Shown here: positions 29,967-45,799 of the stretch, in pieces
Layout: each line of letters begins with the position of its first letter
Numbering within the stretch: the first letter of the stretch is position 1
Assembly: GCF_030813495.1 (NCBI RefSeq)
Contig: NZ_JAUSUI010000009.1
Location: 62,001 to 126,000 of the forward strand
Reading direction: 5' to 3'
DNA: 64,000 nucleotides
From: Ancylobacter polymorphus
GTDB lineage: Bacteria; Pseudomonadota; Alphaproteobacteria; Rhizobiales; Xanthobacteraceae
Notes under the pieces: generated by a model
What the model saw: the letters and a program-made list of their open reading frames with translations, nothing else
What the model was told of the DNA's origin: nothing
The model's database searches: none
Translations under genes and position numbers: made by a program

Positions 29967-30037
29967 CGGATTGCATTTCGGGGCTGTCTCGACGGCCTGG
30001 CCTTCCGGCGCAAAACCTGAGCCTTCCAAGGGATCAA

Positions 30038-30050
30038 GAAATGGCGCACC
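30038..30050 (+). repeat. left attachment site core (direct repeat)
   Basis: GAAATGGCGCACC is identical to 45719-45731. It is 72 bp after the last gene of the nas operon and marks the junction between chromosome and island. Confidence 0.78.
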
Positions 30051-30095
30051 GCGCCGGATGAAGATGATAACTATGCCTACGCGATAGCCCTCTAA
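30051..30095 (+). pseudogene. displaced 3' end of the recombinase gene
   Basis: Read in the frame that the recombinase would keep if the two attachment cores were joined, this stretch gives A-P-D-E-D-D-N-Y-A-Y-A-I-A-L followed by TAA. It therefore looks like the natural last 14 codons of the recombinase, separated from the rest of the gene by integration. It has no start codon here and is not expressed as a protein. Confidence 0.6.
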
Positions 30096-30131
30096 AATCG
30101 CATTTTGAGCGTTTGCGGAGGGGCTTCCCAC

Positions 30132-30914
30132 CTAATGCGCAACAGCCTTTGACACCGCCTCGACAGCATTCACCAAGGCCGGGAGTAGGCCAGTAACCTT
30201 TGCAACAGCGACTGGAGCTGCCGCAACCAAGGCGGCATCGACGAATTTCGTTGTCCTTTCGCTCAACCACTTTCCGAAAGTGACGGCCAAACCGAGAAGT
30301 TTTGCAGTTCGCGACCTTACAAGCTCCTTGTCGGGGCTGGATTTTTCCAGCTCCCTTTCAATCACCCCTATATCATCCAGTGCATTTCGGAGCTGATCAC
30401 GTTCAGCACTGTGATCTTCTTGGTCAGGTGGCCCGTTGTGCCCCCGCCATGCGAGTTCGCGCTCAAGGTCGTCAATATGATCTCGGAGGACACGAAGCGC
30501 TGTGCGTGCATCGGACATCGCGTCTGTTTCCCCGGCAGCGCCGGGCTTTACGATATGAGCAAAGTCGGTGTTTTCCAGCAGCATTGCTTTGATTTTCGGA
30601 CGGACGAGCCGCCCAACGCTTTCGGCAGGAGAAAAACCGTTGAGGATGGGTGCGCCAAGCTCCTGAACAACGGCTGAGATATTGCGCATCCGATAGCGAA
30701 TCGCTGCGTCGTTCCTCTGAGCAAGAGCGCCACTTAACAACGTCTGCGCAAGCGGCTCGGATCGATCATCCGAGCCGTGAATCTGGAGGCGAAGCAGCAG
30801 CACGTAGACTTCGACCGACCGCCGAAGCTCCTCGTCGGTCCATGAGGTACTCGCGCTCTCAATAGTTCTTCGTGCCATAGAGTCAGATCGCGCCATCGGC
30901 GATTGTGAAATCAT
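30132..30914 (-). CDS. unknown protein, last gene of the defence operon
   Basis: A 260-residue protein. Residues about 25-105 (W-T-D-E-E-L-R-R-S-V-E-V-Y ... R-Y-R-M-R-N-I-S-A-V-V-Q-E-L-G-A-P) resemble the small N-terminal domain found on several restriction-type HNH endonucleases, but no HNH or other nuclease domain follows. The middle is charged and probably coiled coil. The last 55 residues are hydrophobic or amphipathic and rich in A and V, perhaps membrane-seeking. It follows the AIPR gene by 48 bp on the same strand. A role in defence is inferred from position and from the N-terminal domain. Confidence 0.6.
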   Translation of the reverse strand: MISQSPMARSDSMARRTIESASTSWTDEELRRSVEVYVLLLRLQIHGSDDRSEPLAQTLLSGALAQRNDAAIRYRMRNISAVVQELGAPILNGFSPAESVGRLVRPKIKAMLLENTDFAHIVKPGAAGETDAMSDARTALRVLRDHIDDLERELAWRGHNGPPDQEDHSAERDQLRNALDDIGVIERELEKSSPDKELVRSRTAKLLGLAVTFGKWLSERTTKFVDAALVAAAPVAVAKVTGLLPALVNAVEAVSKAVAH

Positions 30915-30962
30915 CCTTGAAAATCAAGTGACATGCCTCCTTATTGGTCCATTGCGAGGGCC

Positions 30963-33029
30963 TCAATCAAGGCTGATGCCCTCTGACCGTGCTTTCTCGA
31001 TAGTATCCAACAGGACGGCGCACTGTTTTTCTGTCGGAATTCTCAGCGGCATCTGCATGGCGACGTTCAATATGCCGATCTCCTTTGGCGTCAGCAGACG
31101 CTTGGCAGCAAGCGTATCATGCACAGTGACCCACTTAGCGGCCGGGATCGCAAAGACCTTCGTCTGCGCCTCAATGCCATTATCCACCTTCTGGGTATTC
31201 CGGGCAGCCCGCTTTTCAGCCACATGATCGTCTCCGGACAGGCATTCGCCATCGAACTCATCCGGCAGAAGGTCGGCAAACTCTTCCATATTTTCCAGCA
31301 TCCGCGCCCAGCAGGTCTCACGCTTGGCCCATTCCGAAATGTTCGAAATACCCTGCATCGGGCGCAGGAGGTCATCGTTCACGCGGGAAGCCACAACCGC
31401 GATGGTGCTTTCCAGAACAGGACTTATCGCCTGCGCATTCCAGATCCGCTGAAAATCGAGACTTTTTTTCTCCCGCCTGGTCAGCTCGCTGAGAACGGCC
31501 AGCGTATAGGCGACGATGTTGGCGCGATAACCGTTGTTGTACCACGGCTGCGCTGACACAATCCGTTCGGTCGCACGAAATATGATCCCTCGCGCAACCG
31601 CGCGTTTGAAGTACGCTTCGTTGAAGCTGTCAGACGACTTGTCCCATTCCTTGCCGATTCGGGAGGCGTAGCGGGCGAAGTTCTTTTCGGCCCCGAGGTT
31701 CACGTATCGCGGATGGTCATCCCAGACGTTCTCGAACTTCGCAAGATCCGTCTTGGTCAGCATCTGCGGCTTCGGATTTTCCGCTTTGAAGCGCTTCTGC
31801 TCGGCAGGGGTGAGTTTGGCCTGCGCATCCGCATACTGACCACGGGCGCGTTCATAAAACCACTTGGTTTCCCGCTGCGCACCTTTGCCCGCAGGCGCCC
31901 ATAGGCGCCGGGAAAACTCCTCCATACGGATATGATACGCATGGTTTGAGAAGAAATCCGCAGCCTGAACCCGGTTCTGGGTATTGGCATACTCGGAAAT
32001 GCGCGGAACGACCTTCTCGCTCTCCTCGTTGTCAATCACTGACAACTTCATCTGCACGAATATCTGCGTGAGGTCAGCTTTGTCTTTCCTGCGGGTGTGG
32101 AATAGCGACGCGGTGGTCTGGCCGCCATTCACAATCTGAAGGTCGGTTATCTTAATGATCTGGAGGCCATCGCCAGTCCGCTTCGTTTCGACCCCCTGGG
32201 CCGTGGCCGTGATGCCGTTGTTGTAGGCGAAGAACATACCCGGCTCGGTGATGATAGTCGTGCGAATGCCTTGGTTAACCTTCGCTCTGGCCTGAAGGAA
32301 CGTGCGGACGTTCTGCTCCAGCAGCCTCGCGCCGAACTTCTCGTATATTGTGGAAAGGATCGGTCCCGGCATGACAACGAGATAGGATTGATACGCACCT
32401 GTGCCCAAATGGGCGGGGAGGCAGGATATGCCGGTTCCGAACATAGCTTCGAAGTCCAGGTCCAGCGCCTCTTTGTGGCTGCGGGAACTTCGCTGGCGGT
32501 GGAGGCGAGAGATATCCCAGATGTGAAAGCTCGTTGCGATACCGGCTATTTCGGTATCCGGCAGCGCCTGAATACGGTCGCTCAAGGTACGCTCGGAAAC
32601 GAGAATAAGATTGAGATGCCGGATCAGCGATTTCCTGTCAGCGATCTGCCTTGCGAGGCCATATTCCGGCGATGTGATTTCCAGACCAGCCGCCAGATTC
32701 TTCCGCAGACTGGCGTCGAAGAAATTAGCCAAACGCTTGAACGCGGCGTCAACATCGGTGCGGGTAAGTGATGCCAGCTCGGTGCGGCCGTCGAAGTCGG
32801 CCACGAAAAGGTTCAGACCGCCTTCGTCGTTAAACCAGTATCCGTCCACACGCATACCGCGCTGCGCCCGATAGTGCGCGAACTCAAAGCCTTCCGTGAA
32901 CCCCGTCTCTGTCAACTCGCGGGACACGACATCCATGAATTCGGCCAGCAGGAAGCTTCCATTCGCCTCGGCCCCGGCCAACAAATCCTGACGGAAATCA
33001 TGGAAGAACTCTTCGGCGGTCGTTTCCAA
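30963..33029 (-). CDS. AIPR family protein (abortive-infection phage resistance)
   Basis: A 688-residue protein. The central A-Y-N-N-G-I-T-A-T-A and I-V-N-G-G-Q-T-T-A-S-L patterns, followed by a V-P-R-I-S-E-Y-A-N-T-Q-N-R-V-Q-A-A-D segment, are the landmarks of the AIPR (PF10592) family, known from abortive-infection and restriction contexts. The biochemical activity of the family is not settled; nuclease action is possible. It follows the PD-(D/E)XK gene without a gap (stop and start abut at 33029/33030) and belongs to the same operon. Confidence 0.88.
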   Translation of the reverse strand: METTAEEFFHDFRQDLLAGAEANGSFLLAEFMDVVSRELTETGFTEGFEFAHYRAQRGMRVDGYWFNDEGGLNLFVADFDGRTELASLTRTDVDAAFKRLANFFDASLRKNLAAGLEITSPEYGLARQIADRKSLIRHLNLILVSERTLSDRIQALPDTEIAGIATSFHIWDISRLHRQRSSRSHKEALDLDFEAMFGTGISCLPAHLGTGAYQSYLVVMPGPILSTIYEKFGARLLEQNVRTFLQARAKVNQGIRTTIITEPGMFFAYNNGITATAQGVETKRTGDGLQIIKITDLQIVNGGQTTASLFHTRRKDKADLTQIFVQMKLSVIDNEESEKVVPRISEYANTQNRVQAADFFSNHAYHIRMEEFSRRLWAPAGKGAQRETKWFYERARGQYADAQAKLTPAEQKRFKAENPKPQMLTKTDLAKFENVWDDHPRYVNLGAEKNFARYASRIGKEWDKSSDSFNEAYFKRAVARGIIFRATERIVSAQPWYNNGYRANIVAYTLAVLSELTRREKKSLDFQRIWNAQAISPVLESTIAVVASRVNDDLLRPMQGISNISEWAKRETCWARMLENMEEFADLLPDEFDGECLSGDDHVAEKRAARNTQKVDNGIEAQTKVFAIPAAKWVTVHDTLAAKRLLTPKEIGILNVAMQMPLRIPTEKQCAVLLDTIEKARSEGISLD

Positions 33030-34007
33030 TCAGGGCCTCCGGAACATATCGGCTTCATCGCAGGAGAACGGAGCTATCGCTTCCAGCATGACGTCGTAGG
33101 AAACCTTGGTGATGCCGGGCGGCAGCTCCGAGCGGATCAGGCGGGGAAACCCATCGGTCACGCGGTATCCTTGAAGACCGCCGACAATGAAACGTGGAGC
33201 ATCGTATTCTGCGAGCGGCACGTACCCCATGCCTGCGAGTTTGTCGGCAAACTGCTCGATGGCATCGGCATCCGCAAGCTCACTATCGATCAGGCCGACA
33301 ATGCCGTTCAATGACAATGCCTGGTCAGCATCGGATTGACTGCTCAGGCGCTGGGTCAGGAGAAACAGCTCGTCAGCAAGCGATTCCAATTGATCCTCGG
33401 ACGAAATGCGGACGGTGCTACGTTCGCGACCCGAAAGCGATTTCACCTCGATGGCCCGGTCGCCGAAAATGAAATCTTGATGGGAATCGTCAGGACCGCA
33501 CCACGCATCGACGGCGGCGACCTGCGGCAGTGTATCCTTATAGAGAAGGCGCAGGACGTGCAGTTCGCCGAACAGGCCGCGAATCTCTTCTGGTGAGAGC
33601 AGGCGGGCATTGCGTCCAGCAAGAAACGCCTTCCAGCGCCGCAGATGGGCAAGTGCGACGGCCAGTGCCGCCGCCGGGTCCGCGACATCCTTGAGGCTGC
33701 TAATGAGTGTTTCGCATAGGCCAAGAAACAGATCGCTGTCGATATGACGGGCGAGCGTGAGAACGAAACGCTGTTGTCCGGCACGATCACCGTTGCGAAG
33801 ATCAACGCCGATACCATGCAGAGAAACAACATCACGGCGGAACTGTGCGGTGTGATCGCCATCCAGCTCGATAATCAGCAGGCACTGCGCTCCGGCATCC
33901 CGTCCCCAGAAGATGGAAACTCCCGTGGTTCCCGCGACGCGGAGAACACTGAGATCAGCCGACGGTATCGTAATAGCGTCCCATGGCACCGACCTACTCA
34001 TCGTCAT
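33030..34007 (-). CDS. PD-(D/E)XK-motif nuclease-like protein (DUF4420 type)
   Basis: A 325-residue protein. The nuclease core is visible as E148 in G-L-F-G-E-L-H-V-L, D178 in S-H-Q-D-F-I-F and E187-V-K189 in A-I-E-V-K-S, the order of a PD-(D/E)XK active site. It is probably the cutting subunit of the restriction-like system. Two ATG codons (34007 and 34001) lie inside the end of the Z1 gene; 34007 follows a GACGAGG ribosome-binding site and was chosen, giving a 14-bp overlap. Sequence recognition elements are not obvious. Confidence 0.85.
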   Translation of the reverse strand: MTMSRSVPWDAITIPSADLSVLRVAGTTGVSIFWGRDAGAQCLLIIELDGDHTAQFRRDVVSLHGIGVDLRNGDRAGQQRFVLTLARHIDSDLFLGLCETLISSLKDVADPAAALAVALAHLRRWKAFLAGRNARLLSPEEIRGLFGELHVLRLLYKDTLPQVAAVDAWCGPDDSHQDFIFGDRAIEVKSLSGRERSTVRISSEDQLESLADELFLLTQRLSSQSDADQALSLNGIVGLIDSELADADAIEQFADKLAGMGYVPLAEYDAPRFIVGGLQGYRVTDGFPRLIRSELPPGITKVSYDVMLEAIAPFSCDEADMFRRP

Positions 34008-36675
34008 AGTCCTCGTCGGCATCCGGATCGTCATCCATCGAGCCGTACATCTCCTCCATCCAGACCTTGTTGGCGATCACTTCGATCTCATAGTCGGTTC
34101 CGTACAGACCGTCTGGGAAGCTCAGCCCCCATGCGGGAACTCTGTATCCAGCCAAGTCAGGATTATCGGTCGGCTCCAGAACATGAATCATCAGCAGCGG
34201 TTTATTTCGGATCATGCGGTAATGAACGTCAGAGGGCTTTTTCTTTCTGGACTTCGTGTCCTCGGACGCCAGAATTTCGGCATCTGAAATTTGATCTTCT
34301 GTAAGGCCAAGCTTCTCGTCGCCTCGACTGGCGACACGGTATCCTGAAATCTGCCATTTATCGGACGTGGCATCCTTTGCAGCCGTTCGGTCCTGTGCGC
34401 CTAGGCGATATGCCGCCGGGTCGCCAGGCCCTTTAGAGATAAGCAGCACATCGGCCTTGGCGAATTTAGGCGCGATTTTGAGAAGGTACTCAACTGCGTC
34501 CGCTTTCCGCTTCCGCGCCGATTTATGTGCCTTGAACCGCAGCAGGAACTCATCGACTTTCCCGACATCAACGTCAGGAATGAACCACCCCTTTTCTGTC
34601 GGTTGCACTGTGCCGCCAAACCCGTCGCGCCAGTATTCCGCGATCAGCTCCTCGTTCTCCAAGTTGATTTTGGTATCAAGAGGAAGCAGCCAACTCTCCT
34701 GAAGTGTGCCAGTGAGGTTCTGGTTGAGAACAACCTTTTCACCACTGCGCATCTTGTTCGCGGCGGTTACCATCAGGCTGTCCGGGTGGGACTTCACGTA
34801 GAGGCCGAAATCCCTCGGACTCATTTCGGCCTGACGCATCCGCGTGATCTGCTGACGCAGCTCCTCGGATGCCAGTGCGATATGCTTATACCAGTTGATT
34901 GAGTCATTCGGCAGCCAGACGCGGCATACATCCTCGTAACCCGGTCGATAGCCGAACCAGCGGCCCATCTGCATCAGCGTGTCGTACATCTTGGTGTTAC
35001 GGTACATGTAACTGACTGTCAGACCTTCAATCGTAAGGCCGCGTGATAGGCTGAGACCGCCAATAGCGATTGCGGTCAGACCGATGCCATCCTTGTCGTA
35101 CTTCGCGAAATCGAGAACCTCGTCGCTCTTGCTGTTGACGACGTAGGTCCGCATGTTCTCGAATACGCCCCAGAGAGCGGCTTTCACTTCGTCCCAAGTG
35201 TAGTGTCGCCCGCCAAATTCGTTGGCGGTGAACTCGACGTCGAACGCGGCACGCAGACGGGCCATGTGTTCGTTTTTCGATGATGCGGCTTCCGGCATCA
35301 TGTAGTTGGCCTTTACGGCCTCCCGCATCCGGTCGAGGCGCAAACCGATGAAGCTCCGCACCTCTTTTTGAACGGATACGAAGCGGGACACATTGATCAG
35401 CATGGAGCAGTGTTTCCGCTCCTGACCTCTGAGGTTGCGGATGGCTCGCGCGACAATGAACTGATCCAGCGCACGATAGAGGCTGGGTGGGAGTTCCGCG
35501 ACCGGAAAACCGTTCTTATGAATGAATGGGAGGTATTCCTCGCAGTCCTCGATTTGCCGGAGGATAGCACTGCTGCTCTCGTCGTTCAGAAAAACCTTGT
35601 CCGGCCCGAAATATGTGGTCGGCGCGTCCAGCGAGTGAATGAAGTCGCTCGGAAACAGCTCCTCGTAGGCATCTTTGTCGAAAGCGTCGGGGTCGATGAA
35701 TATGTTGGCGAACGGTGTGGCCGTATATCCGACGTAACAATTCTTGGTGAACAGCCGCAGAATCTTCCTTATCCACGCGTTGGTTGCGGTCGGATTGATA
35801 TCAGGCTTGTTCGTGTTGATTGATGCGTTGTCAGCTTCGTCGTCGATGACCAGCATAGGGACATCGGCAATGCGGTCGCGCCCTTTCGCATTCAGCTCCC
35901 GCAACCAGATGTGCAGAGCTTCAAGCGTCTTCACATTCTTTTTGATCACAAGAATGACAGGATTCTTGAAATCGTTCAGTTGTGCGCCACTGACATTCGC
36001 AGTCTGCTTGTTGAAATCTGAGTTTATGTTCGTGAGCGTGACAGGGTTCGGGTAGTTTCTGTCCAGCCCGACACCGATGTTGACGCGATTTTCCGGATCG
36101 CTGGACCGGCCGACAAATCCTTCATCGACACGCTGCTGAGTCTGCTTGCGCAGATTGTTGTGAATGCCCGCAATGACGATGATGAACTTGTATCCGGCAT
36201 CGGCAGCCTTCGCGATCACGCCCATGTAGTTGGCAGTCTTGCCGGACTGGACATGGCCGATGACCAGACCACGGCGTTTCCATTCGCCTTCGCTGGTCGG
36301 GTCCTGGAGCAGGCCGAGAATTTTTGAACCGTCAGCGTTGAGGAGGGTGTTCACAACGGTGGGCTTCCAGCCCTGACCGCGAAGGTAGGCACCATAAGCA
36401 TCCGCATAAGTGGTGCCGATCTCACGCTTGTGAATCCAGTCCTCGTCGTGCGCGGCATCGACATCGATCAGTGAAACGCCCGCGTTCATGCGCGACGGTA
36501 TTGCCGTCTCGGCTTCAGTGATGATGCTCTGAAGATCGCCGGAGTAGCCGAGCAGCGGCGCGAGGAGAGCCGCTTTCGCTGCGATCTCGTCGCGACACGG
36601 CAGGCCGTCCAGATCGTCGAACGCGCCGATCAGTGCAGCAAGAACAACCTTCTCCTTATCGCCCTGTGCGCTCAA
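33994..36675 (-). CDS. Z1 domain superfamily II helicase-like ATPase
   Basis: An 893-residue protein. Walker A lies at residues 139-147 (I-G-H-V-Q-S-G-K-T) and a DEAD-like Walker B at 276-282 (V-I-D-D-E-A-D). The segment between and after them matches the Z1 domain (PF10593). A long C-terminal half ends in an acidic tail (D-D-D-P-D-A-D-E-D-Y-D-D-E). Z1 ATPases are known to occur with MutL/MORC-type ATPases and DNA methylases in restriction-like operons. It probably moves on or remodels DNA. The start overlaps the stop of the GHKL ATPase gene (ATGA, 36672-36675). Confidence 0.9.
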   Translation of the reverse strand: MSAQGDKEKVVLAALIGAFDDLDGLPCRDEIAAKAALLAPLLGYSGDLQSIITEAETAIPSRMNAGVSLIDVDAAHDEDWIHKREIGTTYADAYGAYLRGQGWKPTVVNTLLNADGSKILGLLQDPTSEGEWKRRGLVIGHVQSGKTANYMGVIAKAADAGYKFIIVIAGIHNNLRKQTQQRVDEGFVGRSSDPENRVNIGVGLDRNYPNPVTLTNINSDFNKQTANVSGAQLNDFKNPVILVIKKNVKTLEALHIWLRELNAKGRDRIADVPMLVIDDEADNASINTNKPDINPTATNAWIRKILRLFTKNCYVGYTATPFANIFIDPDAFDKDAYEELFPSDFIHSLDAPTTYFGPDKVFLNDESSSAILRQIEDCEEYLPFIHKNGFPVAELPPSLYRALDQFIVARAIRNLRGQERKHCSMLINVSRFVSVQKEVRSFIGLRLDRMREAVKANYMMPEAASSKNEHMARLRAAFDVEFTANEFGGRHYTWDEVKAALWGVFENMRTYVVNSKSDEVLDFAKYDKDGIGLTAIAIGGLSLSRGLTIEGLTVSYMYRNTKMYDTLMQMGRWFGYRPGYEDVCRVWLPNDSINWYKHIALASEELRQQITRMRQAEMSPRDFGLYVKSHPDSLMVTAANKMRSGEKVVLNQNLTGTLQESWLLPLDTKINLENEELIAEYWRDGFGGTVQPTEKGWFIPDVDVGKVDEFLLRFKAHKSARKRKADAVEYLLKIAPKFAKADVLLISKGPGDPAAYRLGAQDRTAAKDATSDKWQISGYRVASRGDEKLGLTEDQISDAEILASEDTKSRKKKPSDVHYRMIRNKPLLMIHVLEPTDNPDLAGYRVPAWGLSFPDGLYGTDYEIEVIANKVWMEEMYGSMDDDPDADEDYDDE

Positions 36676-38147
36676 GCGAATCCCCCCTTAATGTAATTCT
36701 CCACGATCTCCACGTAATCGTCAAAGAGTCGTGTCGATCTGACAATATCCCTGAATGCATCCGCATCCCCTGGCCCGTCACCCCACAGGGCGCGTTTGAG
36801 GTCATCAAGGCGGTCTTTCATATCATCGACTGGCGGCCTCTGGTTCACATCGCGAGGGTGCGTCGAATAATCCGAGTAGATCATCTCGACGGGCAGTGAT
36901 GCCGCAACGGCCTCCAGCAGAAGGTCGAGGTGGCGCACACCTTCGCCGTCCAGTTTCTCGTGCAGGCGCTGTGCCAGCGGATGCGTCCTGTTCAGGGCAT
37001 ACCGGATGCCGGTCTTGTCGGCATATCGCTCCCATAGCGGCGCGGAGATTTCATGGAAGAGTTTCTGCCCGCGCCCTCGGTGAACGGTTGTGCTTGCCCC
37101 TGAAACCTGAGCGATAATCTGCCGGAGTCGTTCCCGTACCGGCAGCGGCGGACGGGATCGCGACTTCTTGATGTCGATAGTCCACGCCTCATCGAGGCTG
37201 TTTGGAAAGTCGATCTGAACACGGGCCAGCTTGGTCGCTTCCCCCTTCGGTATCAGCCTGAACCAGTCACCCCACGCCATCAGCCTGCCGTTGCGGTAGA
37301 TGTAGGCTCCCTGATTGGAGATGAAATCGCTGCGGTTCTGATAGAAATCGTATTCGCGGGCCGTGAGGTTTGAATGGTGCGGAAGGATGTACGGTTGCAG
37401 ATGCACCGCTGCCGATCCGATCCGCACAATCTCTTCCGGCAGATGCCTGGTATGAGTGTTTTTGCGGCAGAATGGGTCAAAGGCTTCGACCGGATGCCCG
37501 TTCACCGTGATCGCGATGCGGCCCCGACCTCGGATTTCACCGGCAAGAAAACGGTGGAAGACGAGCGCCAGATGCTTTTCCAGCACGTCCAGCTTCTCAT
37601 TTACGATCTCATCCCGGCGGTTGCAGGTTTCATCTTCCAGCAGCCGATCCATTTCCCGCCAGATGACGGCGGTGCCGTGTGCGCCAAGGTGGTCCACATA
37701 GGGTAGAGCCGCGATATCCTCTTCGTCGAGAATGCTGAGAATCCAGTCATCCGCCTGGTCGATAACGTCGAGATTCCATTCAGCCCCTGACAGGCTGCCA
37801 TCCTTCGTGCTCACGACGGTGAGGGAGCGGCATTGTGAGAAAGAGGCGGTTTTGAGGCCGAGACCGAACCGACCCAAATCTTTTGGTGATCTCTGTGTGC
37901 GCGGGTTTGCGGCACCGTGCCGCATGGCTGCAAGAAGCTCGACTGCATCCATTCCATGCCCGTCATCAAGGATGACGAGGGCGGGCTGTAAAGCTGCCGA
38001 CTCGCAAAAGATACTGATTTTCGACGCATCAGCGGAAATACTGTTGTCGATGAGGTCTGCAACCGCGGCTTCAAGCGAATAGCCCAAATCACGCAATGAT
38101 GCGGAGAGGCATGCCGCACTCGGGGGCAGGCGTTCGGGGCGTGCCAT
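36672..38147 (-). CDS. GHKL ATPase of the MutL/MORC-like restriction group
   Basis: A 491-residue protein. The ATP-binding fold is clear: N-box with D-L-I-D-N-S at about residues 31-36, D-D-G-H-G-M at 61-66 and G-R-F-G-L-G-L-K-T-A-S from residue 92. A transducer-like domain follows, and the C-terminus has no known nuclease motif. Bacterial MORC-like ATPases are thought to act as ATP-gated DNA clamps or scaffolds in restriction systems. It overlaps Vsr upstream by one base (TGATG) and Z1 downstream by four. Confidence 0.88.
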   Translation of the reverse strand: MARPERLPPSAACLSASLRDLGYSLEAAVADLIDNSISADASKISIFCESAALQPALVILDDGHGMDAVELLAAMRHGAANPRTQRSPKDLGRFGLGLKTASFSQCRSLTVVSTKDGSLSGAEWNLDVIDQADDWILSILDEEDIAALPYVDHLGAHGTAVIWREMDRLLEDETCNRRDEIVNEKLDVLEKHLALVFHRFLAGEIRGRGRIAITVNGHPVEAFDPFCRKNTHTRHLPEEIVRIGSAAVHLQPYILPHHSNLTAREYDFYQNRSDFISNQGAYIYRNGRLMAWGDWFRLIPKGEATKLARVQIDFPNSLDEAWTIDIKKSRSRPPLPVRERLRQIIAQVSGASTTVHRGRGQKLFHEISAPLWERYADKTGIRYALNRTHPLAQRLHEKLDGEGVRHLDLLLEAVAASLPVEMIYSDYSTHPRDVNQRPPVDDMKDRLDDLKRALWGDGPGDADAFRDIVRSTRLFDDYVEIVENYIKGGFA

Positions 38148-38566
38148 CAGGAAGCCCCGCGAATTTCGGTGGATAGCTGCCGTACGATCCGGTTAGCATC
38201 GGCTTTCAGATCGCATTCCCAGACGATGATGACCGTCCAGCCTGCCGCCTCAAGTTCGACCTTGTTCCGATTATCTCTTTCCACATTCCCATCAAACTTT
38301 GCCTGCCAGAACTCAATTCTGGTGGAGGGTGTGGTCGCACTGCGGCACCCCTCATGTCGATGCCAGAAGCAGCCATGAACAAAGACGACGGTGCGGTATT
38401 TCGGCAAAACGATATCAGGCTTACCCGGAAGGTCTTTTGAATAAAGCCGAAACCGGAAACCCGCACGATGGAGCAGCGACCGGAGTCGCTTTTCAGGGGC
38501 GGTGTCGCGTCCTCTGATCCGCGACATGTTCCAGCTCCGCCGCTCCGCCGAAATTGTGTCCGCCAT
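38147..38566 (-). CDS. vsr: very short patch repair (Vsr) endonuclease
   Basis: A 139-residue Vsr protein: N-terminal R-S-W-N-M-S-R-I-R-G-R-D-T, L-P-G-K-P-D-I-V-L-P with the catalytic aspartate, F-V-H-G-C-F-W-H-R-H with the cluster of histidine and cysteine residues, and W-E-C-D-L. Vsr nicks beside T:G mismatches that arise when 5-methylcytosine deaminates, so it fits the cytosine methyltransferase encoded just before it. Both neighbours overlap it by one base. Confidence 0.95.
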   Translation of the reverse strand: MADTISAERRSWNMSRIRGRDTAPEKRLRSLLHRAGFRFRLYSKDLPGKPDIVLPKYRTVVFVHGCFWHRHEGCRSATTPSTRIEFWQAKFDGNVERDNRNKVELEAAGWTVIIVWECDLKADANRIVRQLSTEIRGAS

Positions 38567-40200
38567 CAGTTGTCGTCCGGCACAGCATGAAGGACCTCGG
38601 CGACTATATCAGCGATCTGTCGGGCGAGTTGCGGCGGCACAGCGTTGCCGACCTGATGATACTGCTCAGTGCGCGGGCCTGCGAAGAAATAGTTGTCTGG
38701 GAATGTCTGGAGCCGCGCCGCTTCACGAACCGTCAGGCTCCGGCACTGAGCGGGATCGTAATGGATGAAGTAATGCCCGTCCTTGGAGATATGCGATGTA
38801 ATTGTCGTTGAAACTTGGCCTGCGAGTTGCACCCGAAATCTGTCCGAAAACATCTTGCCTGTCCGACCTTCCTCGACATTTTTATGGTCGGGAAGCAGAT
38901 TTGTCGGGAAATCGGCCAGCTTCGGGCTGCGACCTGTTTTTTCTGCAAAGGTCGCGGCATAAAGATAGCGGCGTAAGTCAGATCCCATGTGGCTTCGTGC
39001 CTCGTGCGAAGTCAACACAGACAGCCTGCTGTCATAGAGGCTCCGCAGCACATCATGTGGAGGCTTGCGCATATTGTATTGGGATGACGATACGGCGCGG
39101 GGCGAACTGACCTCAATCAAATTATGGAAATCGAGCGCTTTTGCGACATCGCCAGCATAGACCGCGCCATTAAGCTGACGGCGGACATTCATGCTTGAGA
39201 TGGCCCGAAGCTCACTGAGCCATGCAGCAGGGCTGTCTTTCGCTTTCGAAAGTCCACTGCGTATCGAAGGCAGTGATCCTATCGTTTCCTGAACCGTGGG
39301 GGCGACCATCTTTTTCAGTGATCTGGGACGAACCTTCAGGTCACTGCGGATGCCGACTATAAACATCCGGTGACGTGCCTGTGGGATTCCATATTCTTCT
39401 GCGCGAACCACGAAAAGGCGCGGGTCCACATCCCCTTCCGCCATATCCGGCTCAGTGAGCGAATACAGCCTGTAGGAAAGATCATCCGGCGCTCCGGGAA
39501 TGGCAGTTCCGGGATGTGAAAGGTCGCGAACGATCCGGGTTATTGCCGACTTGCCGTCGATGGTCGCGGAAAGCAATCCCTTTACGTTCTCCATTACGAA
39601 CACCGGCGGACGATGATCTACGATGATGCGGAGGTACTCCAGATAAAGGGTGTGCCGCTCATCCTGCGCGAAATCGGTACGACCCATCATCCGCGAACGG
39701 CCCACCAACGAATAGGCTTGGCACGGCGGTCCTCCAACGAGCGCCCATCGCCTGCTATCGCCAACACGATCGCGGATGATCTTTTTCACTTCCGCATGGG
39801 ATTCCGGCCCAAGGGAGATGCAGAAGGCCGATGCAACTGCATGGGCATGAGCCTGGGGGTGCAGCCGATACAACTCCTCTAGCGTTATGCCACCCTTGAG
39901 GAACGTATAATAGTCATCCGGCGCTTCTCCGTCAGGAAACTGGCGGATGAAATGACGAAGAAGAAGCGTCTTATGTGAGAATATGTCTCTCTCTATCGAC
40001 GCAACACTATTGAAGCAGGGCCTGCCTCTTTCATCTGAACTCAGAGCAAAGCCTTCGCCGAGGCCGCCGGGGCCGGCAAATACATCAACAACGGGGAATG
40101 CTGCGTTTCGCCACGCCTGTCCAGGCCACATTACCCCGGGGGCAGCGCGTACGGGTAGTTCCTCAACCATTGGATTAACTGCGAGCATGCCGACAATCAT
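38566..40200 (-). CDS. DNA (cytosine-5) methyltransferase
   Basis: A 544-residue m5C methyltransferase with motif I (D-V-F-A-G-P-G-G-L), motif IV (G-G-P-P-C-Q-A-Y-S, catalytic cysteine 160), motif VI (V-M-E-N-V-K-G), motif VIII (Q-A-R-H-R) and motif X (Q-V-G-N-A-V-P-P). The target-recognition region between VIII and IX is long, about 170 residues, so the target site cannot be guessed. It should protect host DNA. The ATG at 40200 overlaps the stop of the Phd-like gene (ATGA); an ATG at 40188 is also possible. It is followed by vsr. Confidence 0.93.
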   Translation of the reverse strand: MIVGMLAVNPMVEELPVRAAPGVMWPGQAWRNAAFPVVDVFAGPGGLGEGFALSSDERGRPCFNSVASIERDIFSHKTLLLRHFIRQFPDGEAPDDYYTFLKGGITLEELYRLHPQAHAHAVASAFCISLGPESHAEVKKIIRDRVGDSRRWALVGGPPCQAYSLVGRSRMMGRTDFAQDERHTLYLEYLRIIVDHRPPVFVMENVKGLLSATIDGKSAITRIVRDLSHPGTAIPGAPDDLSYRLYSLTEPDMAEGDVDPRLFVVRAEEYGIPQARHRMFIVGIRSDLKVRPRSLKKMVAPTVQETIGSLPSIRSGLSKAKDSPAAWLSELRAISSMNVRRQLNGAVYAGDVAKALDFHNLIEVSSPRAVSSSQYNMRKPPHDVLRSLYDSRLSVLTSHEARSHMGSDLRRYLYAATFAEKTGRSPKLADFPTNLLPDHKNVEEGRTGKMFSDRFRVQLAGQVSTTITSHISKDGHYFIHYDPAQCRSLTVREAARLQTFPDNYFFAGPRTEQYHQVGNAVPPQLARQIADIVAEVLHAVPDDN

Positions 40201-40376
40201 CCCCCAGATCGCTTGGCATTCGCTTCAGACGCAAGCAGCAACCGTTGAAATTCTTCAACGCTGACAACAACGACAACTGGCCTCCCATGCTTTTCAACCT
40301 GGACTGGCCCCGCTCTAGCGCGGTCGAGCAAAAGTCCAAAACTGTTCTTGGCGTCCTTCGCAGACATGGTCTGCAT
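40197..40376 (-). CDS. Phd/YefM-family antitoxin-like protein, first gene of the defence operon
   Basis: A 59-residue protein with the family pattern M-S-A-K-D-A-K-N-S-F-G-L-L-L-D-R-A-R-A-G-P-V-Q-V-E-K-H-G-R and V-V-V-V-S-V-E-E-F-Q-R-L. The N-terminal half of such proteins binds DNA as a repressor; the C-terminal half, which binds a toxin, is short here. No toxin gene is adjacent. Its stop overlaps the methyltransferase start. The ATG at 40376 follows GGGGTGG. It is a candidate autoregulator of the operon. Confidence 0.8.
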   Translation of the reverse strand: MQTMSAKDAKNSFGLLLDRARAGPVQVEKHGRPVVVVVSVEEFQRLLLASEANAKRSGG

Positions 40377-40402
40377 TCGTTCCACCCCATCATGAATGAG
40401 CC

Positions 40403-40430
40403 ATTTTAGCTACTTTGGAGGCTTTTACAA
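40403..40430 (-). promoter_or_regulatory. candidate sigma-70 promoter of the defence operon
   Basis: On the minus strand, TTGTAA (40430-40425) and TAAAAT (40408-40403) are 16 bases apart, upstream of the Phd-like start at 40376. The expected mRNA start near 40396 gives a short leader. An operator for the Phd-like protein may overlap it, but no perfect palindrome is seen. Confidence 0.5.
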
Positions 40431-40779
40431 CTATAGGCAATGCTGCCGCATCAATTTGTCTGATGCCCCCCCACGACCGAAGCGGTTGCGGTTGGTGCAA
40501 CAGGAGAAGTGCCGGGGCATCTATCGATCATGCCACTTCCGTGCCGCCAAAGGGTTGCTTGGGGGCGCTGCCCCCTGGCGCGGCGCAAGGGATCGCTGAC
40601 GCTCGGTCGGAACGGTATCCCCGGCCTTCCTCCACGTCGTTCCGCCGTTCCGTGCAGGCCGGGTGATCCCCCTCCGTCCCGCCCGCCCTTGCGCCTTACA
40701 CCCCCCGGTCTCGCCGACGGGCAAGGGTTCAGGAGCGGCGCTTCGCTGCTCTGAACCCCAAGCTCCGAGGAACAGAGAC
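40431..40779 (+). other. long non-coding leader of ardA with hairpins
   Basis: About 350 bp precede ardA. Two strong hairpins stand out: GGGGGC-GCT-GCCCCC at 40561-40575, and a larger one at 40725-40758 with an 8-bp outer stem GGGTTCAG/CTGAACCC and further inner pairing. The second one lies 20 bases before the ardA start. No convincing protein is encoded. The region may hold a structured promoter or single-strand promoter, as seen upstream of early-transferred anti-restriction genes. Confidence 0.5.
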
Positions 40780-41307
40780 ATGACCAACGCAGCCGAAAGT
40801 AATCCCCGCATCTACGTCGCCTGCCTTGCCGCGTATAATAACGGCTACCTGCATGGTGCCTGGATTGACGCGGATCAGGATGCAGATGAGATCAGAAGCG
40901 AGATCGCGGCCATGCTCGCGCGCTCGCCGATCGTCAGCGCGGAGGAATATGCCATCCATGACTACGAGGGATTCGAGGGCGTCGCGATCGAGGAATATGC
41001 CGGCATCGAGAGGGTGGCGCGGATCGGCGCGTTCATCGCCGAGCATGGCGCTTTAGGCGCGGGCTTGCTGAAGGAGTTCAGCGGGGACACCGAACAAGCC
41101 GAAACCGCCTTGCGCGACTGCTATCATGGACAGTTCACCAGCCTTGCCGACTACATGGAAGAGCTGACCACCGAGACGGTCACGATCCCCGACGCCCTGC
41201 GCTACTATATCGACTGGCAAGTGATGGCACGTGATGCCGAGATGGGAGGGGACTTCTTCACCGTCGAAACCGCGCATGACGAGGTGCATGTCTTTTCACA
41301 CCGCTAA
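40780..41307 (+). CDS. ardA: anti-restriction protein ArdA
   Basis: A 175-residue acidic protein. It begins near P-R-I-Y-V-A-C-L-A-A-Y-N-N-G-Y-L-H-G-A-W-I-D-A, the start pattern of ArdA, and contains the E-E-Y-A-I-H-D-Y-E-G-F segment. ArdA folds as a DNA mimic and blocks type I restriction enzymes, letting incoming DNA survive. The ATG at 40780 follows CGAGGAAC and was chosen over a longer frame that runs into the leader. It lies next to the island's own restriction-like operon, transcribed divergently. Confidence 0.92.
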   Translation: MTNAAESNPRIYVACLAAYNNGYLHGAWIDADQDADEIRSEIAAMLARSPIVSAEEYAIHDYEGFEGVAIEEYAGIERVARIGAFIAEHGALGAGLLKEFSGDTEQAETALRDCYHGQFTSLADYMEELTTETVTIPDALRYYIDWQVMARDAEMGGDFFTVETAHDEVHVFSHR

Positions 41308-41317
41308 AAGACCGCCG

Positions 41318-41347
41318 TTGTCTTGCCTGCCTTGGTAGGCAAGACAA
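41318..41347 (+). terminator. strong hairpin after ardA
   Basis: A perfect 11-bp stem TTGTCTTGCCT/AGGCAAGACAA with an 8-base loop begins 11 bases after the ardA stop. There is no T run, so it may protect the mRNA 3' end or be a weak or factor-assisted terminator. Confidence 0.55.
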
Positions 41348-41385
41348 GGTGAAGACGGATTAAGCATAGCAGTGATCGCATTACA

Positions 41386-41409
41386 CGCTCAAGTTATCTA
41401 AATAGAGCG
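41386..41409. promoter_or_regulatory. inverted repeat upstream of the DUF6499 gene
   Basis: CGCTC and GAGCG flank an AT-rich core (41386-41390 and 41405-41409) about 80 bp before the start at 41489. The size and symmetry fit an operator for a dimeric regulator. The protein that binds it is not known. Confidence 0.35.
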
Positions 41410-41488
41410 ACTACAATGACGCTTTCACATCCGCGACCATCTCCGTCCGGGCTTTGTCCTGCACCGCCCCGGATAGGGAGGTGAGGCC

Positions 41489-41704
41489 ATGCTGAGTATC
41501 GACTGGCGCTCGCCGGCGGCCTACGCGTACACAAAAACCATTTCCGCCGCCGGTTTTGCTTGGGAATATCTTCGTCGCAACGACGACTACCGGGACGATT
41601 TCCAGTCCGCCAGCGCGGACGGAGGCCCCGGCGCTGACCGACTCGAACACTTCATTCGGCGCTGGGGGTTACGATTTCCCAAGCGACCCCGACGCACCGC
41701 CTGA
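41489..41704 (+). CDS. DUF6499 transcriptional-regulator domain protein (first half of a frameshifted gene)
   Basis: A 71-residue protein with D-W-R-S-P-A-A-Y-A-Y and F-A-W-E-Y-L-R-R-N-D-D-Y-R, the DUF6499 pattern. The start follows GGGAGGTGAG. The sequence R-R-W-G-L-R-F continues naturally in the +1 frame as P-S-D-P-D-A-P-P-E, which points to a switch at TTT-CCC-A (41675-41681). In Mesorhizobium ICEs a DUF2285-type excision activator (FseA) is made by +1 ribosomal frameshifting between two such genes. In the zero frame translation stops at 41702-41704. Confidence 0.75.
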   Translation: MLSIDWRSPAAYAYTKTISAAGFAWEYLRRNDDYRDDFQSASADGGPGADRLEHFIRRWGLRFPKRPRRTA

Positions 41705-42272
41705 ACGGGAACCTCCGGTCTGGTCGCCGCTATTGCAGCCGCGAGCCATCATGCTGTCGCCCGTGGAACATCCAAGCGGCCAGGCAGTACCGATGATCGT
41801 GCTCGCGCATATCGACGGCCTTGAACTGCGTCAGGCCGAAGATGGCTGGCACGGCATCTGACAGGCCGATGGCGTCGTGCATCAATTCTGGCTGCGCGAC
41901 GCCGTGCCGGACGCCGCCGCCTTCTATGCCGCATCTCTGCCGATGGATTCCTATCTGGAGCTTCGCGCCCACGCCGCGCGGCGTCTCTGGCGCGCACTGA
42001 CCGGACGCCCGCCAGGCGCGGACTTCCGGGCGCTGCCCGCCCAACTCCGGCAATGGCATATCCTGTCGCTGCGGGCGCTCGACGCCCGGCTGCGCGGCGA
42101 GAGCTATCGCGGCATCGCCGAAGTCCTGCTCGGCTTCCACGGCAGCAAAGAGGATTGGGAGATCGACCCGAGCAAGAACAAGGTGCGCCGCCTCGTCGCG
42201 CATGGCGTCAAGATGATGCGCGGCGGCTATCGCTTGTTGCTGCATTATCCGATCAAGCCGGATACGCGCTGA
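41678..42272 (+). pseudogene. DUF2285 half of the frameshifted regulator, interrupted by an in-frame TGA
   Basis: This is the +1-frame continuation of the DUF6499 gene. The first part runs P-S-D-P-D-A-P-P-E to D-G-W-H-G-I, where TGA (41859-41861) interrupts it. The same frame then resumes with V-V-H-Q-F-W-L-R-D and a full DUF2285 domain (R-A-L-D-A-R-L-R-G-E-S-Y-R-G-I-A-E-V-L-L-G ... V-K-M-M-R-G-G-Y-R). A TGG codon changed to TGA would explain it. The C-terminal part could start anew at the GTG at 41877 and give a 131-residue DUF2285 protein. If FseA-like, the lesion may have reduced excision. Confidence 0.7.
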
Positions 42273-42285
42273 CGGCATCAATCCG

Positions 42286-42573
42286 TCAGGGTCTATTGGC
42301 CGCCGCCTGTTCCAATATGCGCCGATAGCCTTCGCGCGATAGCCATTGCGCGCGTTCGAGATGGCTTTGCCAGCAACGGCGGGTGCGCAGTTCATCAGCG
42401 ACCGGATCGCGATGCAGCACGATTTGCGCGACTTCCTGCCATTCCGCGTTCTCTGCCTTGGCGTCCAGCAACCGCATGTACGTCACGAAATGCCGTTCGT
42501 CATAGGGCGTAATCGCATCGCCGGTCGGCGCTTCGTCATCCACGTCGGGATCGAGTTCGACAGGTGTTTTCAT
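42286..42573 (-). CDS. small DUF2285-type DNA-binding protein
   Basis: A 95-residue protein. After an acidic N-terminus (L-D-P-D-V-D-D-E-A-P) comes Y-D-E-R-H-F-V-T-Y-M-R-L-L-D-A and W-Q-E-V-A-Q-I-V-L-H-R-D-P, then S-H-L-E-R-A-Q-W-L-S-R-E-G-Y-R. This resembles short DUF2285 proteins common in alphaproteobacterial integrative elements. ATG at 42573 with an AGGGAG ribosome-binding site. It converges on the split regulator with a 13-bp gap. A regulatory role is inferred. Confidence 0.7.
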   Translation of the reverse strand: MKTPVELDPDVDDEAPTGDAITPYDERHFVTYMRLLDAKAENAEWQEVAQIVLHRDPVADELRTRRCWQSHLERAQWLSREGYRRILEQAAANRP

Positions 42574-43034
42574 CTTCACTCCCTCTACCTTTGGAGAGGG
42601 ATGGTCTGCGGTGCGCCCCCGCAAATATCCTCTCTGACTCCTGGTGATCGGGGAGTTAGTAACCGTGACTAGACGGCCCCATGGCCTTTAGTTCGAAGAA
42701 CCTGTTGCATACGCCACAGGCTCCCCGACCATAGGGTCAAGGAGTGTGGTGCCGTCACGGCCGGCACCAACCGCTAGTCAGGGGTTACTACGCCCCCGGA
42801 ACAGCGCGTCACTGCTCCTAGCCCACGCTTATCCGAAACGGGCGGAAAAGTCTCTCCCTATTCGGTGTAGCAGACGCCGAGCCGCTGAAAACTCTCATCT
42901 TTTCGGTCTCATAGGGGTGCCGCCAGCGCATAGGCGCAAATGCGGCACGCTACCCGCCGCCGATCCCTCGCCATGGTTCGCCTAGTTCCGGGGCCTAAAG
43001 CGCCCCGGAATCCACCAGAACCAAGGAGGGTTCC
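42574..43034. other. non-coding structured region of the island
   Basis: This 460-bp stretch has no convincing gene but several inverted repeats. TAGTAACCGTGACTAG (42657-42672) pairs with CTAGTCAGGGGTTACTA (42774-42790); CGGGGAG (42649-42655) pairs with CTCCCCG (42721-42727); and GGTGCCG/CGGCACC forms a hairpin at about 42748-42768. This could be a transfer or replication origin, a recombination accessory site or a structured RNA. Nothing decides between these. Confidence 0.45.
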
Positions 43035-43352
43035 ATGTGCACAGAGCGCCGCCGCGCCCGCAAGGGGCGACCGCGACAGTCGATCCCCGAACCACTTCCC
43101 GACGATCTGTTCGATTACGCCGACGATCCCACGCCGGACGGCCGGGCACAAGCTGCCGACGCGCCCCTTCTCGGCCCGGACGGCCAGAGGATGCGCGTAA
43201 CCGACGATTTGCCCGATGATGTTCCTGTCACCGAGGCCGAGATTGACGTGTTCGAGCGTTGGTTCGGCGATGTGTTCGACGAACTCTTGAACCCGAGAAA
43301 GCCGGATGACAGCTTGCATTTCCTATCACACACTGATAGGAAAAAGATGTGA
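43035..43352 (+). CDS. hypothetical protein upstream of the TumE/TumA pair
   Basis: A 105-residue, strongly acidic protein with a basic first ten residues and no recognised domain. The ATG at 43035 follows AAGGAGGG. Its stop overlaps the tumE start (GTGA), so it belongs to the operon leading to the recombinase. The last codons form one arm of a hairpin that includes the tumE ribosome-binding site. Confidence 0.6.
   Translation: MCTERRRARKGRPRQSIPEPLPDDLFDYADDPTPDGRAQAADAPLLGPDGQRMRVTDDLPDDVPVTEAEIDVFERWFGDVFDELLNPRKPDDSLHFLSHTDRKKM
43319..43343 (+). promoter_or_regulatory. hairpin covering the tumE ribosome-binding site
   Basis: A perfect 10-bp stem TTTCCTATCA/TGATAGGAAA with a CACAC loop ends six bases before the GTG of tumE. 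The AGGAAA in the right arm is the likely Shine-Dalgarno sequence. The same palindrome could be a DNA operator. Confidence 0.65.
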
Positions 43353-43702
43353 ACGCGGATCGTGATCCGAGCCTCGACACGCTTCTGGACCTCGACGGAC
43401 AGATGCTCTTTGTCGATCCCGAAGGCGGCTATTGGGTGAAGTTTGTCGTCACCCGCGTTCCGGCCTCGCCGGAAAAGCCGCACGGCCTCGATTATTCGCT
43501 CACGCTTCACGGGCCTTCGGGCGAACGGCTGGTCGGCTTCGATAACGCCCATCCGGTCGGCCGAGGCAGGAGGGGCGAGCCGATGGACCATAGGCATCGC
43601 CTCCAGACCGTGAAGCCTTACGCCTACGAGGATACGGCCACGCTGTTGGCCGACTTCTGGCAGGCGGTGGACGCGGTGTTGAAGGAGCGAGGTGCCCTAT
43701 GA
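43349..43702 (+). CDS. tumE: TumE-family toxin (DUF6516)
   Basis: A 117-residue protein with G-Q-M-L-F-V-D-P-E-G-G-Y-W-V-K-F, H-G-L-D-Y-S-L-T-L-H and D-H-R-H-R, then L-L-A-D-F-W, the pattern I know for DUF6516/TumE. Family toxins are small cytoplasmic proteins paired with an HTH antitoxin; the mode of action is unsettled. GTG start at 43349 with a sequestered ribosome-binding site. It overlaps tumA by four bases. Confidence 0.78.
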   Translation: MNADRDPSLDTLLDLDGQMLFVDPEGGYWVKFVVTRVPASPEKPHGLDYSLTLHGPSGERLVGFDNAHPVGRGRRGEPMDHRHRLQTVKPYAYEDTATLLADFWQAVDAVLKERGAL

Positions 43703-44093
43703 CCACATTGAAAGTCGGGATTGCCGACTATGAAGAAATGAAGGCCCGCACCATGCGGATTGCCAAGGGCGAGGAAAAGCCCGCGCCCGGCGATCCGAAG
43801 GTGTGGTTCACCTCGACCGAATCCTTCGCCAAGGTGCTGTCGGCAGGGAACCGCGAGTTGCTTCGCGTCATCGCCGAGAAAGCCCCGGCATCGCTGGAAG
43901 AACTGGCGGAAATCACCGGCCGGGCCGGTTCCAATCTGTCACGCACCCTCAAAACGATGGAGAGCTACGGCCTTGTGCGGCTTGAGCCGGGCCACGGCCG
44001 CAAGCTCGCGCCCAAGGTGGTCCATGACCGCGTGGAGCTGGCGCTGCCCCTGATCGACCGCCCCAAGGCGAAGAAGGCTATGGGAGACCGGCC

Positions 44094-44097
<4 letters not shown>
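43699..44097 (+). CDS. tumA: TumA-family HTH antitoxin/transcriptional regulator
   Basis: A 132-residue protein. Residues about 50-100 form a winged helix-turn-helix of the MarR/HVO_A0114 kind (L-L-R-V-I-A-E-K-A-P-A-S-L-E-E-L-A-E-I-T, N-L-S-R-T-L-K-T-M-E). It should neutralise TumE and repress the operon. It overlaps tumE upstream and the recombinase downstream by four bases each, so all four genes are probably translated together. Confidence 0.8.

Positions 44098-45799
<1,702 letters not shown>

Follow-up and report, generated by a model that had tools for sequence, protein, structure and literature searches.

We identified a locus that likely represents an excision switch of the FseA/QseM type known from ICEMlSym(R7A), located on a cut-down integrative element, with its putative FseA box most likely rewired to a recombinase operon by a deletion and the switch itself probably turned off by an in-frame TGA. 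The locus lies in a 64,000-nt stretch of Ancylobacter polymorphus DNA (hereafter the window), and its features are given in Table 1. The fseA gene belongs to the published FseA family, whose members use a +1 programmed frameshift and activate ICE excision; as regards the frameshift, only the host is new. New within the literature searched are the box before the recombinase operon, the proposed deletion between two boxes and the leader RNA of qseM.

Table 1. Coordinates of the features of the island and its excision switch, in positions of the window.
Feature	Position	Strand	Evidence or remark
Integrated island, about 15.7 kb	30038..45731		End repeats, G+C, homology breaks
Cargo, Mza-like anti-phage defence cluster	30963..40200	-	PADLOC and Pfam matches
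ArdA antirestriction protein	40663..41307	+	PF07275, E 8.1e-41; upstream neighbour of fseA
fseA part 1, DUF6499 (PF20109)	41489..41704	+	Zero frame; PF20109, E 8.2e-25
+1 frameshift site TGG-GGG-TTA-CGA-TTT-CCC-A	41663..41681	+	Predicted slip at TTT 41675-41677
fseA part 2, middle domain and DUF2285 (PF10074)	41676..42272	+	+1 frame; PF10074, E 2.9e-31
In-frame TGA replacing conserved TGG (Trp)	41859..41861	+	TGG in 82/82 other close rows
qseM-like antiactivator, lone DUF2285	42286..42573	-	PF10074, E 1.7e-7; convergent with fseA
Hairpin TGCGG-GGGCGCA-CCGCA between leader RNA and qseM	42607..42623	-	Pattern search
Structured RNA, putative qseM leader (model R1)	42644..42806	-	Covariation; about 163 nt
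FseA-box-like inverted repeat GTGCCGC-N18-GCGGCAC	42917..42948		In promoter block, about 42905-42982
Small protein, 105 aa, first operon gene, in the place of rdfS	43035..43352	+	Homologues just upstream of related recombinases
TumE-like/DUF6516 protein	43349..43702	+	PF20126, E 7.3e-9; DUF6516 in plasmid annotations; 4-nt overlap with preceding gene
Helix-turn-helix (HTH) protein	43699..44097	+	PF25212, E 2.5e-20; 4-nt overlap
Large serine recombinase	44094..45788	+	PF00239, PF07508, PF13408; 4-nt overlap; 3' end overruns tRNA
tRNA-Arg (CCG), integration site	45723..45799	-	Right end repeat at its 3' end

The island is bounded by a 13-nt direct repeat, GAAATGGCGCACC, present at 30038-30050 and 45719-45731, and the right copy coincides with the 3' end of the tRNA-Arg gene. 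Its G+C content was 0.54-0.63 per kb up to 45 kb, compared to 0.64-0.74 in the 10 kb to the left, with a step at about 30.0 kb. Homology to another genome of the same genus (G002) extends on the left side to window position 30031, with one gap, and starts again on the right side at 45732 in the tRNA; between these flanks G002 carries about 32 kb, including a related recombinase. The cargo consists of MzaE/AIPR, MzaD/DUF4420, MzaC/Z1, the GHKL ATPase MzaB, Vsr and a C5 methyltransferase. The presence of MzaB, MzaC, MzaD and MzaE (PADLOC) together with the methyltransferase and Vsr in one cluster makes it a predicted Mza-like defence system. Among those ORFs of the island that were scanned with Pfam or PADLOC, no relaxase or T4SS was found.

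The two halves of fseA lie in different frames. The first is a 71-codon frame starting at ATG 41489 and ending with the stop TGA at 41702-41704, and its motif AWEYLRRN fits the AWEFLRRN-like motif of the FseA family. The slip site consists of TTT (41675-41677), CCC (41678-41680) and A (41681), with the codons TGG-GGG-TTA-CGA for W-G-L-R immediately 5' of it; passages of PMC10359603 likewise give UGGGGG as encoding WGL in this family. From there the +1 frame begins with TTC-CCA-AGC-GAC, reads F-P-S-D-P-D-A-P-P-E and stays open until TGA 41859-41861; past this codon it resumes at GTG 41877 and runs to 42272. ORF reading and Pfam matches confirmed the passage from DUF6499 to DUF2285 in the +1 frame at TTT-CCC-A, which had been proposed in the preliminary description of this DNA. 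At TTT-C, tRNA-Phe would move from TTT to TTC and thereby join the DUF6499 half to the DUF2285 half, and an FseA product would be possible only if ribosomes slip by +1. Judged from the sequence, such slippage at TTT-C presumably takes place in vivo.

The same description had regarded the frameshift as programmed and under the same control as that of Mesorhizobium FseA, and had named as the contrary outcome that most homologues show one frame with one base less. To examine the offset we compared 110 sequences, comprising the loci L035-L141 (107), L001, L006 and the window. A DUF6499 and DUF2285 pair was found in 106 of them, and the halves were offset by +1 in 104 of these 106 pairs. With three rows removed (the window, L038 as a copy of it and L053 as a duplicate), the offset was present in 101/103 pairs, a count that still holds a few repeats, such as L051 and L094. 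No pair was found in four of the 110 sequences (L047, L048, L060 and L136), in the case of L136 because its contig begins inside the gene. Both halves were in one register in only 2/106 scored pairs, namely L086, with one base less before the slip site, and L134, which is altered otherwise. The L086 gene (L086:9611-10387), from Neomegalonema, thus forms a single frame and is a natural frameshift-free FseA.

The codon at the slip site was conserved as well. After L045 and L134 (2 of the 106 pairs) were set aside for their lack of a W-G motif, 92 distinct rows with this motif were obtained, 91 of which were +1. All 91 distinct +1 rows, window included, have TTT as slip codon, followed by C in 83 and by T in 8. 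By comparison, TTT makes up 26% of the Phe codons (3052/11,693) in ORFs of at least 200 aa from the same loci and the window, and where these genes have a conserved Phe at three further positions, it was used in 8/83, 1/74 and 18/69 rows. An invariant TTT at the slip codon only is as predicted for a programmed site. The homologue rows were collected with the window as the query sequence, are related to one another and in a few cases are the same place twice; due to this sampling near the window, the rate of 101/103 is higher than the family-wide rate of about 61% (of 4709 FseA homologues) that require +1 PRF according to passages of PMC10359603. In the annotation of the Ketogulonicigenium plasmid pYP1, DUF6499 and DUF2285 appear as separate overlapping CDS adjoining a lone DUF2285 gene, and on the other side are an HTH gene, RepA and ParA. 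Taken together, the conservation and the published family strongly support a programmed +1 frameshift and the parallel to Mesorhizobium FseA.

Adjoining fseA is a gene for a lone DUF2285 protein without DUF6499, as is typical of the QseM family. For its start we preferred ATG 42573, a matter of choice, the longest ORF beginning at TTG 42624. Parts of PMC10359603 describe QseM as a lone-DUF2285 protein that binds DUF6499. By analogy, the QseM of the window would hold the frameshift-made FseA in check. Among 77 named loci, which are of unequal length and in many cases cut by contig ends, a qseM relative was found in 68, ArdA was matched upstream of fseA in 45, and the DNA before qseM was conserved in 64 (in 59 from the RNA on, in five at the box only).

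This conserved DNA includes a structured RNA. The hairpin that separates it from qseM occurs as a pattern at 66 places in the fetched loci and the window, with 34 distinct sequences carrying the RNA stretch before it. The alignment (A1) was made from 32 of these 34, with L067 and L077 left out. The resulting structure is branched and has 49 pairs, of which 14 show changes on both sides, and 96.7% of the cells are paired (32 sequences, 31 distinct). None of 500 shuffles, which do not preserve the relatedness of the sequences, scored as high on any of five measures, and slid versions of the structure scored far lower. At the place of the RNA, no Rfam family reached its gathering score in the window or in ten chosen loci. 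Matches to the model were obtained in 15 of 101 related genomes and, in a sample taken from the class, in 32 of 289; both counts include the genome of the window. With blastn, the RNA was found in 228 of 72,556 plasmid records, 185 of those typed as conjugative, and in 2 of 50,697 phage records. The genes behind it encode QseM, small proteins without known role, pilin-like proteins (judged from translations), HTH and MarR-family regulators, and others. In L150 and L161 (G017:C23:207977 and 209177) two copies of the RNA lie 1.2 kb apart, each directly before a pseudopilin-like gene, and a group II intron domain (RF00029, 67.6 bits) was observed within the copy of the RNA region at L112:3379-3451.

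The RNA is likely a cis-acting leader. We consider it somewhat unlikely that the element is instead a trans-acting sRNA related to sRNA-Xcc1 (RF02221), or a DNA structure. All 87 positions of the sRNA-Xcc1 model do align to 42638-42730 on the same strand, in a match of 32.5 bits that is below the gathering score of 53; the element of the window is, in contrast to sRNA-Xcc1, about twice as long and precedes genes. The genes behind it run in the same direction, are of many kinds and are frequently short, and several of its pairs are G-U on the qseM strand; both observations count against this alternative. RF02221 was over its cut-off in none of 61 genomes, with weak matches in 2 and none in the window's own genome. 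The structured RNA before qseM is not described in the portions of the qseM literature consulted (PMC10359603, PMC11963761, PMC8627217). As a leader, this uncatalogued structured RNA on an antiactivator gene could help decide which cells turn donor.

Upstream of the recombinase operon we found an inverted repeat that is the only match in the window even if one mismatch is allowed (0.12 expected). The published FseA box, as passages of PMC10359603 present it, has two hexamers in inverted orientation, separated by 16 bp, and adjoins the -35 element of rdfS; the repeat of the window can be read as such a box. By homology, FseA would bind it at 42917-42948, and from this analogy we infer FseA binding here. 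The repeat was exact in 50 of the 77 loci and the promoter block was found in 61; in 60 of these 61 an rdfS-like motif follows (scored as a peptide motif at most 500 nt from the block), the remaining locus, L085, ending at the block. In the window no rdfS stands behind the box; its place is taken by an operon of four genes, the last of which encodes a large serine recombinase. The box lies directly before this coupled operon, so FseA would switch on the recombinase itself, along with the small protein, the TumE-like protein and the HTH protein. The small protein had no Pfam match and is a candidate directionality factor or recombinase partner. A simple sigma-70 promoter scan found no promoter at the recombinase-side box, and the promoter/terminator scan was uninformative.

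The box and the recombinase operon recur together on other replicons, namely on contig C29 of genome G120 (G120:C29), on Brevundimonas pBH3a and on Enterobacter pCAV1668-85, where they stand behind trbG, trbI and DUF2274. In 7/7 plasmid records matching the first operon gene, the box was about 40 nt upstream by coordinates (two of the seven were inspected). The box is present in 12 plasmid records altogether, and the five outside the first-gene set are Paracoccus TOH p2 and four from Ketogulonicigenium (one inspected). On Paracoccus TOH p2 the box stands before a small gene and an HTH gene, and a recombinase gene is inverted behind them. Among the 24 loci L201-L224 fetched with the recombinase or the small gene, which include some places twice, the box was present only in L201, L213 (the window's own) and L214 (G120:C29). 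If the box before serine recombinase operons, present on alpha- and gammaproteobacterial replicons, is a second FseA box, FseA would directly control the integrase, beyond the directionality factor alone.

The contig G120:C29 also suggests how the box came to stand before this operon. It carries, in this order, fseA, qseM, the RNA with a box, RepA, a relaxase (DUF3363), other genes, TraG, Trb-type genes, a second box, a small gene, an HTH gene and the recombinase. The two boxes are direct repeats, 87% identical over 70 nt. Inside the box of the window there is a mosaic junction, with the left flank of the rdfS-side box of G120:C29 and the right flank of the recombinase-side box. In the most likely reconstruction, the island began as an ICE carrying two promoters of this kind, and recombination between their boxes removed everything in between, including the conjugation genes (T4SS, relaxase) as well as rep/par and rdfS. 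This would be a concrete route for conjugative elements shrinking to defence-carrying islands. The alternative history, a recombinase module with its own FseA box joined to an fseA-qseM fragment without an internal ICE deletion, appears unlikely to us, if by no means negligible. The recombinase operon and box do occur on other replicons, for example pBH3a and pCAV1668-85, and many related recombinases have no box, but G120:C29 holds both boxes in direct repeat and in the right order, and the window has exactly that order minus the middle.

The state of the switch in this strain depends on the TGA at 41859, which does break the second frame, as had been noted before. Rows below 55% identity in DUF2285 were excluded; of the 83 left, 82 have TGG at this codon and the window has TGA, and the stop is thus private to the window copy. 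In-frame stops ahead of the end of the match also occur in five other copies: at positions other than this one in L059, L068 and L137, and at codon 193, near the end, in L036 and L040. A conserved programmed stop was thereby ruled out. Sequence after the TGA was compared to L065 (Sphingomonas endophytica NS334), the nearest relative of the window in the sample, giving a dN of 0.041 and a dS of 0.364; of the amino-acid changes, one could be assigned to the window lineage and four to that of L065, and four were ambiguous. This constraint without decay suggests that the TGA is either a recent nonsense mutation or an assembly error.

In contrast to the FseA family, the frame is not open after the shift, and without read-through the TGA would bar full-length FseA, which probably leaves the strain with a switch that is off. 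As it stands, the fseA gene of the window is an FseA relative by descent that is probably inactive, and excision would have been lost with it. As suggested earlier, the TGA may plausibly have locked the island in place, in that it replaces a Trp codon kept by all 82 close relatives; this reading is weakened by the fact that the TGA may be an assembly error and that rdfS, relaxase and T4SS genes were not found anyway. Elsewhere in the genome (G000:C3:10368-11510) there is a divergent second fseA that has TTT-CCC as its slip site and is accompanied by a same-strand QseM-like gene. This fseA (C3:10368-11100) has no internal stop and might act in trans.

An intact switch, with the TGA introduced by mistake during sequencing or assembly, is fairly improbable. 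The difference is a single base and the sequence behind it shows no decay, but the sequence bears no mark of error and other copies (L059, L068, L137) have in-frame stops too. Much less probable still is that the TGA acts as a second throttle, read through at a low rate as Trp by tRNA-Trp, with FseA needing two recoding events. UGA followed by C is a leaky context, the base after the TGA is C, the codon stands exactly at a Trp position and the sequence after it is still constrained; as a private change (82/82 others TGG) it is no selected family feature, and the in-frame stops of other copies are at different gene positions. That fseA is a plain pseudogene, in which an ordinary indel produced the offset and a nonsense mutation came later, can practically be dismissed. 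The TGA in the second frame and the two pairs in one register (L086, L134) speak for it, but the offset, the TTT codon and the W-G context are common to nearly all homologues scored, in many genera. The offset of 101/103 other pairs likewise ruled out a simple frameshift mutation, and simple mutation remains for the TGA alone. Two further ideas were considered. A QseM-like match on contig C3, flagged with one TGA, had prompted the question of whether TGA is read as an amino acid in this genome, but as read from the translation this TGA lies upstream of the intact frame and gives no support. For a link between fseA decay and an adjoining related serine recombinase there were too few loci, the gene being intact in L077, fused in L086, altered in L134 and truncated by the contig end in L136.

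A broader model can be offered tentatively, and we regard it as somewhat less than even in its favour. Frameshift-made FseA would drive the promoter for rdfS and transfer and also, directly, that of the serine recombinase operon, and the paired boxes would be recombination points at which conjugation genes are shed, giving self-regulated mini-islands with defence cargo. The antiactivator side would be set by the structured leader RNA of about 163 nt before qseM, which belongs to a class that no Rfam family matches at threshold and that is found before unrelated genes on plasmids and ICEs of alphaproteobacteria. By word matching in open-licence PMC, which compares no sequences, we found no description of a qseM-leader RNA or of a second FseA box; the texts consulted included PMC5882170, PMC5009743 and, for sRNA-Xcc1, PMC2996969.

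Compared to the ICE on G120:C29, the island has the same fseA, qseM, RNA, FseA-box promoter and recombinase operon (serine recombinase 82%). The ICE, on the other hand, has two FseA-box promoters with the conjugation genes between them, its fseA keeps the conserved Trp, it has no TumE-like match and its HTH gene matches in two pieces. The qseM gene resembles that of ICEMlSym(R7A) in encoding a lone DUF2285 protein adjoining fseA, and differs in being preceded by a covarying structured RNA. FseA (Msi172-Msi171) of ICEMlSym(R7A) from Mesorhizobium japonicum is among the closest known counterparts of the system described here; shared features are DUF6499 and DUF2285 linked through a +1 frameshift, a site at which TGGGGG encodes WGL, an antiactivator of the lone-DUF2285 kind on the element, and an inverted-repeat box within a promoter block found before rdfS in relatives. 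The window differs from it by the in-frame TGA and by an island on which no rdfS, T4SS or relaxase was found, and its box precedes a serine recombinase operon instead.
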